Shown here piece by piece: positions 36,224 through 38,593 of a DNA stretch of 64,000 nucleotides. The position numbers were made by a program, and so were the translations under genes. This DNA comes from Thermoproteus uzoniensis 768-20. Its GTDB lineage: Archaea > Thermoproteota > Thermoprotei > Thermoproteales > Thermoproteaceae. Position 1 is the first letter of the stretch. Each line of letters begins with the position of its first letter. The stretch spans positions 124,001-188,000 of the forward strand of contig NC_015315.1 of the NCBI RefSeq assembly GCF_000193375.1, written 5' to 3'. Under the pieces are notes generated by a model, which saw only the letters and a program-made list of their open reading frames with translations, did not search any database and was not told the origin of the DNA.

Positions 36224-36826
36224 GTGAAGGCCGCTCTGTTCTCGGGGGGAAAGGACAGCGTCTACGCCGCGTTGCTGGAGTGGCCGGTCGACATATTCAT
36301 TACGTTTATCTACGATTTCCCCAGGCCGTCGCCGCATCTGCTGAACCTCCACAAGGTCGTCGAGCTGGCCGCCGCGATGGGGATCCCTCTGGCGATACTC
36401 AAGGTCGACAAAGGCCGCGAGTTCGAGCAGGAAGTCGCGTTTCTGAGGAAGCTCGGCGTCTCGGAGCTCGTGGCTGGGGACCAGGCCGTCGAGGACCACC
36501 TGCGCTACATGGAGAGGCTGGCCGGCGAGGCCGGGGCTAGGCTGAAGGAGCCTCTCTGGGGCCTCGACCCCGGCGAGCTGTTGTTGAGGGAGGCCGGGGC
36601 ACTGGACTTCCTCGTCATAGGCGCCAACGTCGCCGATCTGGTCTGCGATTTAGTGAGCCGCGACAACGCCGAGGCGTTCCTCGCAAAGACGAGGGCGTTG
36701 GGGGCTGACCCCATAGGGGAGCGCGGCGAGTACCACACCTTAGTCGTCAAGGTGGGGGGCAAGGGCATAACCTACAGATGCCGCGATGTGAGGAAATACG
36801 GCGACTACTATATAGCCCACCTATGA
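36224..36826 (+). CDS. dph6: Diphthine-ammonia ligase-like PP-loop ATPase (Dph6)
   Basis: A 200-aa protein of the DUF71/Dph6 family, which amidates diphthine on elongation factor 2 in the last step of diphthamide synthesis. The PP-loop SGGKDSVYAAL is at residues 7-17, and the C-terminal mark is DPIGERGEYHTLVV. GTG 36224 is supported by ATATTTTAATAG about 22 nt upstream. Its stop overlaps the ATG of the next PP-loop enzyme (ATGA). Confidence 0.85.
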   Translation: MKAALFSGGKDSVYAALLEWPVDIFITFIYDFPRPSPHLLNLHKVVELAAAMGIPLAILKVDKGREFEQEVAFLRKLGVSELVAGDQAVEDHLRYMERLAGEAGARLKEPLWGLDPGELLLREAGALDFLVIGANVADLVCDLVSRDNAEAFLAKTRALGADPIGERGEYHTLVVKVGGKGITYRCRDVRKYGDYYIAHL

Positions 36827-37710
36827 GCCTCCCCGAGCTTCTGGCCGCTGCCGCTTCGCGGGCGCGTTGCGACGGCGTCTTGCTGTCCGGCGGCCTCGAC
36901 TCCGCCACGGTGGCCTGGGCCTTGACCAAAGCCGGCCTCAAGCCGGTAGGGTTCAACACACAGTACGCCCCGGCGCCGGGTTCCGACGTGCCGCACCTCA
37001 TGGAGGTGGCGAGAGCTCTGCGGCTGAGGGTAGTCGTCAGCTGGGTGGGCGAGGAGGAGGCCGTGAAGGCGGCCGAGGAGGTGGTGGGCATCCTCAAGGT
37101 CTTCAACCCCATGGAGGTCGTCAACTGCGCCGCCGCGTACGTCAGCATGAGGGCCGCCGCCGAGATGGGCGTGAGAAGGATATGCACCGGCGACGGGGGC
37201 GACGAGCTCTTTGCGGGGTACGAATACATGCAGAGGATGGAGCCGAGGGAGCTCGACGAGTATATCCGCAGGCTGGCCGAGGGCAGGTGGTACTTCTGCG
37301 CCTTCGACGTGGGGAAGGCGCTCGGCGTCGAGGTCGCCGCCCCCTATCTGGACCCCGAGGTGGTTCGGTACGCCCTGTCCGTACCCGCCGAGGAGAAGGT
37401 GAGGGGCGGCGTGGGGAAATACGTCGTGAGGAGGCAGTTCCAAGGCCTTCTGCCCGACTCGGTGGTGTGGAGGCGGAAGGACCCCATAGAGGTCGGCAGC
37501 GGCTTCTCGGCCCTATACGACGTCCTGGCGCGTAGGGCCGAGGGCTACTCCGCCGATATACCCGTCCAGGGCGCGGCGAAGTACCTCTACAAGGCGTTTA
37601 GGGAGAGGGGCTTGACCTACGAGAGGGATAAGGAGTCGCCGTGTCCCGTGTGCGGGTACAAGCTGAGGGACGGCTACTGCCCCATGTGCGGGTACTACGC
37701 TAGGGCTTGA
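36823..37710 (+). CDS. Asparagine synthetase-domain PP-loop enzyme with C-terminal zinc ribbon
   Basis: A 295-aa protein with the ATP-pyrophosphatase domain of class B asparagine synthetases: LLSGGLDSATVAWAL (residues about 20-34), TGDGGDELFAGYEYM and a late RRKDPIEVGSG. There is no N-terminal glutamine amidotransferase domain, so it must use ammonia or another donor, or another substrate. The last 30 residues carry CPVCGYKLRDGYCPMCGYY, a zinc ribbon like those of tRNA-thiolating PP-loop enzymes. It is coupled by ATGA to a Dph6-like gene. Asparagine synthesis and tRNA or protein modification are both possible. Confidence 0.75.
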   Translation: MSLPELLAAAASRARCDGVLLSGGLDSATVAWALTKAGLKPVGFNTQYAPAPGSDVPHLMEVARALRLRVVVSWVGEEEAVKAAEEVVGILKVFNPMEVVNCAAAYVSMRAAAEMGVRRICTGDGGDELFAGYEYMQRMEPRELDEYIRRLAEGRWYFCAFDVGKALGVEVAAPYLDPEVVRYALSVPAEEKVRGGVGKYVVRRQFQGLLPDSVVWRRKDPIEVGSGFSALYDVLARRAEGYSADIPVQGAAKYLYKAFRERGLTYERDKESPCPVCGYKLRDGYCPMCGYYARA

Positions 37711-38593
37711 CCGAGTAGACCCTCAAGCCGCCTACTATCTTCGCCTCGACCAGGCCGGCCTTCCTCAACGCGTTTAGGGCGTATTCGACGGTCCTTAAGG
37801 GCAGTCCGGTGAACTCGGCTATCGATCTAGACGTGAGGGGGCCCCTCTCCTCGAGGGTCTTGAGGACGTACCTCATGGAGGGCGAGAGCCTCCCGGCCGG
37901 CTCGGCCTCCTTCCTGGCCACTACGGGCCTCAACAGCCTAGCCGTGGAGCCCGCCCACACGACTGCCCTCCCGTCGGCGAGCGGGATCCTCACGCGGCCG
38001 TCGGCGATCAGCTCGGGCAGGAATCTGGACCTCACGTCGGATATCTCTATTCTCTTGCCTAGGGGGACTATATAGGGCGGCCTCCTGGCGGTCGAGTTCA
38101 CCGGCACTATTTCCAGAACCTCCGCCTCCAGATCTATCACGGAGCCCCCAGCTGATCTGGCGTAGGCGGAGGAGCCGAGCGGCGTCGACACCAGCACCCC
38201 GTCGGCGACGTCGCTGAAGAGGATCCGGCCGTCCACGCTTACCCTGTAGGAGGTCAAGGCGGCCGACCTCCTGGGGAATATGGCCACCTCGTTGACTGCC
38301 CTCACCAAGGACCCGCCGGACTCGGCGTGTAGTCTGGGGATCTTGACCACGGTGCATTCGGCGCGGGAGGCCACAAGGGGGTAGAGATCCTCCGAGGCGA
38401 AGGCTAGCTCGGCGTCTACGCCCCTAGGCGAGATGCCCACCACCACCTCGTCCCTGCCCCTCAACGCCTCCAATATCTCGCGGTCGGCGCCGTAGACCAA
38501 GACGAAGTCCGCGTCGTCGCTGAGCCTTATCCCCAGCCTCTTGGCGGCCTTCTCAGACTCGGGCGAATAGGCCCTCACCGCATCAATACACAC
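37700..38593 (-). CDS. NAD kinase-like domain fused to winged-helix domain
   Basis: A 297-aa two-domain protein. Residues about 1-225 follow the NAD kinase fold: VNEVAIF (NE motif, residues 101-102) and DGVLVSTPLGSSAYARSAG (residues 131-149). The usual GGDG loop is altered to YGADREI (residues 34-40), keeping the Asp but losing two glycines. Residues about 235-297 are a winged helix, LTSRSIAEFTGLPLRTVEYA being the recognition part. It may be an active kinase with a DNA-binding tail or a regulator that senses NAD(P). Start GTG 38593 has CTAAAA about 25 nt before it. Confidence 0.72.
   Translation of the reverse strand: MCIDAVRAYSPESEKAAKRLGIRLSDDADFVLVYGADREILEALRGRDEVVVGISPRGVDAELAFASEDLYPLVASRAECTVVKIPRLHAESGGSLVRAVNEVAIFPRRSAALTSYRVSVDGRILFSDVADGVLVSTPLGSSAYARSAGGSVIDLEAEVLEIVPVNSTARRPPYIVPLGKRIEISDVRSRFLPELIADGRVRIPLADGRAVVWAGSTARLLRPVVARKEAEPAGRLSPSMRYVLKTLEERGPLTSRSIAEFTGLPLRTVEYALNALRKAGLVEAKIVGGLRVYSVKP

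Follow-up and report, generated by a model that had tools for sequence, protein, structure and literature searches.

The window, by which we mean the whole 64,000-nucleotide stretch of DNA that was analysed, carries on its minus strand a gene in which a NAD-kinase-like domain is joined to a winged helix. The features of this gene and its protein are summarized in Table 1.

Table 1 Features of the fusion gene and its product in the window.
Feature	Position	Strand	Details and basis
NAD-kinase-like / winged-helix fusion gene	37700..38593	(-)	297 aa, GTG start; ORF, domain matches and orthologues
NAD-kinase-fold domain, residues 1-225, proposed NAD(P) sensor	37919..38593	(-)	PF20143 8e-17, AF2, Foldseek E 3.5e-22
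Altered GGDG loop, residues 35-38, Gly-Ala-Asp-Arg	38480..38491	(-)	family alignment
NE motif, N101-E102	38288..38293	(-)	fused family: N 65/65, E/D 65/65
STPLGSSAYARSAGG nucleotide-site motif, residues 136-150	38144..38188	(-)	family conservation
D128	38210..38212	(-)	fusion 65/65, ordinary NAD kinases 0/40
C-terminal winged helix, residues 237-297, and stop	37700..37885	(-)	HTH_24 2.7e-7, AF2
Presumed DNA recognition helix, residues 266-278	37760..37798	(-)	AF2 and conservation; R267 invariant, T268 63/65

Domains of the fusion protein and its neighbours

Pfam NAD_kinase_C (PF20143) matched residues 101-217 of the fusion protein (E 8.1e-17, above the curated cut-off), and HTH_24 (2.7e-7) and HTH_5 (3.1e-6), both above cut-off, matched residues 237-283. 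The relatives found by sequence in the PDB were NAD kinases. An AF2 model, for which 24 aligned family members were used as input, had a mean pLDDT of 90.7 and consisted of a NAD-kinase fold and a C-terminal winged helix in the order helix-helix-helix-strand-strand (helices 238-250, 255-262 and 266-278; strands 282-287 and 290-295). When this model was compared with the PDB using Foldseek, the top match was P. aeruginosa NADK with NADP (E 3.5e-22), and all 50 listed matches were NAD(H) kinases. By Pfam and Foldseek, the kinase domain is of the NAD-kinase type and not a riboflavin kinase. The fusion protein gave no Pfam match to a Nudix domain, to the adenylyltransferase or nicotinamide ribose kinase domains of the NadR type, or to a NiaR-type ligand-binding domain. 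Orthologues in four congeneric genomes were 91, 82, 79 and 68% identical, with alignments spanning residues 1-296 or 1-297.

The original prediction, made from the sequence alone, had described NE (N101-E102) and VSTPLGSSAYARSAGG motifs, a changed GGDG loop (YGADREI) and a C-terminal winged helix. Both motifs are present in the ORF, and the winged helix is supported by the Pfam HTH matches and the AF2 model. The changed loop also held, with the refinement that the first Gly and the Asp are kept (G35 and D37), and that three positions have changed: the second Gly (now A36) and the Gly-Thr pair following the Asp (now R38 and E39). Within the STPLGSSAYARSAGG motif, T137, P138, G140, S141, Y144, G149 and G150 are nearly or fully invariant in the family.

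The neighbours of the fusion gene in the window's genome are purB and genes for asparagine-synthase-like and ATP-pyrophosphatase-like proteins; no nad gene is adjacent, and this neighbourhood is conserved only within the genus. Control of purB and the asparagine-synthase-like gene by the fusion protein was considered and rejected because of this narrow conservation and because no palindrome was found between the fusion gene and purB, where the best score (3.7) was below the background median (4.2). The asparagine-synthase-like protein (window 36778-37710) is short, with 310 aa, lacks the glutaminase part and has zinc-ribbon-like cysteines at its C-terminus (CPVCGY...CPMCGY). The start of its gene is overlapped by a TTX_0299-family putative ATP pyrophosphatase gene (window 36224-36826; NF052347, 317 bits).

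The fused family, its altered loop and the second NAD kinase

Of 250 Thermoproteota genomes sampled, 99 from 13 families had the fusion in a profile search, and a pattern scan detected it also in Njordarchaeota and Nitrososphaerales contigs. In a maximum-likelihood tree of the kinase domains, fused and ordinary sequences were split by one branch with a support of 100/99. Its occurrence in 99 genomes as one clade rules out a chance fusion or frame artefact.

GGDG is the distinguishing motif of this kinase superfamily (PMC11233901). We aligned 65 fused and 40 ordinary sequences, and the loop region was present in 63 of the fused ones. The fused loop was G-x-D-x, with G and D in 63/63 and GGDG in 0/63, and all 40 ordinary paralogues had GGDG[T/S], indicating that the loop change is not due to chance. 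Arg or Lys followed the loop Asp in 53 of the 64 fused rows with a residue at that position. G35, D37, N101, D131, G132, T137, G140, S141, G150 and D198 were common to fused and ordinary sequences, and A111, Y116, D128, N166, S167, R171 and R202 were invariants specific to the fusion. The NE, ADG and TPxGSxAY motifs are all kept, as is the Asp of GGDG. Nearly all members have a basic winged helix, with a net charge of mostly +4 to +10, and the kinase domain is mostly acidic.

The window's genome (1.94 Mb, one contig) contains a second NAD-kinase-like gene at C1:1663189-1663476, whose open frame of 248 aa includes VVGGDGTLL with GGDGT intact. Thus, the fusion protein is not the only NAD kinase of this genome, and the condition of a sole NAD kinase, under which the original prediction would have been refuted, does not hold. 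PF01513 misses both of these genes. Using PF20143, another NAD-kinase-like gene was found in 50 of 52 fusion carriers; the two without one are drafts of 89-91% completeness. A sole or ordinary NAD kinase was rejected on the basis of the second kinase and the loop loss. Residual kinase activity, which would make the protein bifunctional, remains possible because the Asp at the catalytic position is retained. Three genomes of one family (f26; G091, G196 and G223) each have three NAD-kinase-like genes: the fusion, an open frame of 353-363 aa and a short divergent one of ~250 aa. Of these genomes, G091 and G223 resemble Sulfolobaceae.

NAD-biosynthesis genes and a shared palindrome

Neighbour clustering over 25 loci showed that two families, NadA and NadC/NadX, recur beside the fusion in distant lineages. 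Their identities were assigned using NCBIfam (NadA, 375 bits; NadC, 296 bits; both above cut-off), and the aspartate dehydrogenase NadX scored 211 bits, above the TIGR03855 cut-off. The nadA-nadC-nadX genes are those of de novo NAD synthesis. In 17 genomes of families f1, f5, f11 and f15, the fusion gene is the direct neighbour of nadA, 106-254 bp away, and the two genes are divergent in 14 of these genomes. Two Nitrososphaerales contigs have the fusion gene in divergent orientation to a nadC-nadX-nadA operon.

A de novo palindrome search of the divergent intergenic regions identified TGCAA-N3-TTGCC just upstream of the TATA-like region of nadA in f5, f11, f15 and f1. Its score was reached by none of 200 dinucleotide-shuffled sets (one sequence per genus). 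A second, related palindrome overlaps the regulator gene start in f5 and f11. The core GCAANNNTTGC (GCAA-N3-TTGC), with at most one mismatch, was found upstream of nadA in 38 of 42 carriers versus 3 of 29 non-carriers (Fisher 4e-12), and the perfect core in 25/42 carriers versus 1/29 genomes without a detected fusion (Fisher 6e-7). The 42 carriers include the adjacent loci used to discover the motif, and the Fisher values overstate independence since many carriers are related. The family-level statement, that the site at nadA was seen in all 8 carrier families examined, is safer. Nineteen Nitrososphaeria-type genomes (f12, f45 and f47) were left out of motif discovery; the perfect core was present in 17 of them, typically ~100 nt upstream of nadA, and where measured the fusion lies at least 70 kb from nadA or on another contig. 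The site in Nitrosopumilaceae-like genomes is located between nadX and nadA, and a scan upstream of nadX gave none. The palindrome often takes the longer form GGCAA-N3-TTGCC, and in nearly all lineages the sites are upstream of the TATA-like region.

NadA was not found in the window's genome, and of nadC only a C-terminal fragment was present (C1:1900812-1901105). Thus, the de novo NAD pathway has likely been lost in this genome, with the regulator persisting. The genome encodes nicotinate phosphoribosyltransferase, pncB (NF006415, 544 bits versus a cut-off of 243; PF04095 fails to detect archaeal-type PncB), and a PncA-like isochorismatase-fold protein (PF00857). Palindromes with one mismatch each precede both genes: CGCATATTTTGCG, beginning 48 nt ahead of the pncB start (~C1:639749-639761), and CGCATAGATTGCG, beginning 49 nt ahead of the pncA start (~C1:1869255-1869267). 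By chance, a site with at most one mismatch occurs in ~13% of 280-bp stretches, and these two sites are individually weak; the argument rests on the position shared across genomes. The congeneric genome G001 has CGCATTTCTTGCG, with one mismatch, at the same place before pncB. In three Vulcanisaeta-type genomes (f2), a site lies 62-64 nt before pncB; its core is perfect in two of them and has one mismatch in the third. In the congener G002, two of the five genome-wide matches are perfect sites ahead of nadA; at pncB the palindrome was absent in G002 and G003. In G004, another congener, perfect sites before nadA and before the pncA-pncB operon are two of the four genome-wide matches (C148:4324 and C142:1767). 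The fusion gene was not found in this draft of 210 contigs despite the perfect palindromes, which could reflect a missing contig, a loss or a different factor at the palindrome.

A genome-wide scan of other families for further regulon members using the exact motif gave mostly matches inside genes, and in Vulcanisaeta-like genomes the exact motif also occurs several times, mostly inside genes. A perfect CGCAAATTTTGCG in G002 (C1:975212-975224) lies upstream of an MFS transporter gene of the aromatic-acid/H+ symport-like kind, which has a second MFS gene in divergent orientation beside it; the transporter encoded downstream of the palindrome might carry niacin. Another perfect palindrome is located in the window's genome (C1:97007-97019) between glutamate-dehydrogenase-like and MCM-helicase-like genes.

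A putative NAD(P)-sensing regulator and its alternatives

These results suggest that the fusion protein is likely a transcription regulator that senses NAD(P), controls NAD synthesis and is derived from a duplicated NAD kinase. The original prediction had left this reading beside that of a kinase that binds DNA; the regulator is now strongly favoured because of the second NAD kinase, the NAD-gene neighbourhood and the shared palindrome. Our computation supports the fold, the fusion, the single clade, the second NAD kinase, the gene linkage and the palindrome, while DNA binding, the ligand, the loss of kinase activity and the direction of regulation are inferred.

In the proposed mechanism, the kinase-fold domain, with its NAD(P)-binding residues kept and its GGDG loop lost, would act as a sensor of NAD(P)(H), binding NAD(P) without efficient NAD phosphorylation. 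The C-terminal winged helix, probably in a dimer or tetramer, would bind GCAA-N3-TTGC before NAD-biosynthesis genes, and occupancy of the kinase fold would control this oligomer on GCAANNNTTGC. The predicted DNA target of the protein is GGCAATAATTGCC-type DNA, for which there are no binding data. Binding of NAD(P) would shift the fit to DNA, adjusting the pathway to the cofactor pool. The predicted targets are nadA-nadC-nadX where the de novo pathway exists, and pncB, probably with pncA, in genomes left with salvage alone, such as that of the window. Since nearly all sites are upstream of the TATA region, we lean slightly towards the protein activating its targets at low NAD(P); repression is not excluded. 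Autorepression may occur in lineages where another site lies at the start of the regulator gene itself.

No experiment stands behind the regulator reading. Counting against it are also the conserved loop Asp and, in the window's genome, a fusion gene that is not beside a nad gene, the absence of nadA and the mismatched sites. The perfect sites of G004, in which no fusion gene was found, and the mostly intragenic exact motifs of Vulcanisaeta-like genomes also count against it. The protein could be bifunctional, with kinase activity on NAD or a different substrate combined with DNA binding and control of NAD genes, a combination resembling that of RbkR for riboflavin. The retained Asp of GGDG and the NE, ADG and TPxGSxAY motifs would fit this, and an archaeal bifunctional riboflavin regulator is a precedent. 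However, this is unlikely, as the GGDG motif (PMC11233901) is intact in 0/63 sequences, Arg or Lys follows the Asp in 53/64 rows and nearly all carriers have a separate intact kinase. Even less probable is an ordinary, somewhat divergent NAD kinase whose winged helix serves only protein contacts: similarity to NAD kinases does extend across the whole domain, but the second intact kinase, the consistent loop loss, the basic winged helix, the nadA linkage and the shared palindrome all speak against it.

A regulator of NAD genes that senses another ligand (ATP/ADP, NaAD, NMN or polyphosphate) instead of NAD(P) remains conceivable. The fusion-specific D128, N166, R171 and R202 may mean an altered specificity, and bacterial NrtR responds to ADP-ribose (PMC6800001), whereas the nucleotide-site residues common with NAD kinases are retained.

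Relation to known regulators and significance

The reviewed types of NAD regulator, NadR, NiaR and NrtR, were all described in bacteria (PMC6800001). By analogy, NrtR is the closest in logic to the NAD(P)-sensing regulator proposed here: it has a degenerate NAD-related enzyme domain N-terminal to a winged helix, adjoins nadA/B/C and has a palindromic operator between genes (PMC6800001). Its sensor, however, is derived from a Nudix hydrolase, it is bacterial and its operator sequence is different, so that the fusion would work like NrtR without being a member of that family. NadR, the enterobacterial NAD-liganded repressor, is likewise a regulator of NAD biosynthesis with enzyme-type domains (PMC6800001), but it combines an N-terminal repressor domain with adenylyltransferase and nicotinamide ribose kinase domains. 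NiaR resembles the fusion as a DNA-binding protein for transcriptional control of NAD genes and differs in being a niacin-responsive repressor (PMC7713382). RbkR is an archaeal protein with a kinase and a DNA-binding domain, which controls its own cofactor pathway. It appears, by analogy, closest in organism and design, whereas its pathway is that of riboflavin and not NAD, its kinase fold is different and its catalytic activity is kept. NAD kinase itself (NadK/PpnK, COG0061) shares the fold and the NE, ADG and TPxGSxAY motifs; the fusion differs in that GGDG is lost, a winged helix is added and a true NAD kinase exists alongside.

The original prediction knew of no described system of this kind, and no NAD-kinase-derived regulator was found in the open-access literature searched. 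Subscription journals and regulon databases were outside this search, and thus an earlier prediction elsewhere is possible. In a bolder reading, which we also regard as likely, the fusion is the first regulator of NAD biosynthesis to be recognised in archaea. It would sense NAD(P) with a domain derived from NAD kinase and act through a single ancient operator, GGCAA-N3-TTGCC, retained from the hyperthermophilic Thermoproteia through to the ammonia-oxidising Nitrososphaeria. The fusion points to a second NAD-metabolic enzyme having been turned into a sensor, and it cautions that archaeal genes with a NAD kinase annotation may in many cases not encode kinases. For the matching of NAD supply to demand in archaea, the fusion offers a concrete protein, ligand class, operator and set of targets, all of which could be examined in archaea that can be cultivated, probably ammonia oxidisers among them.
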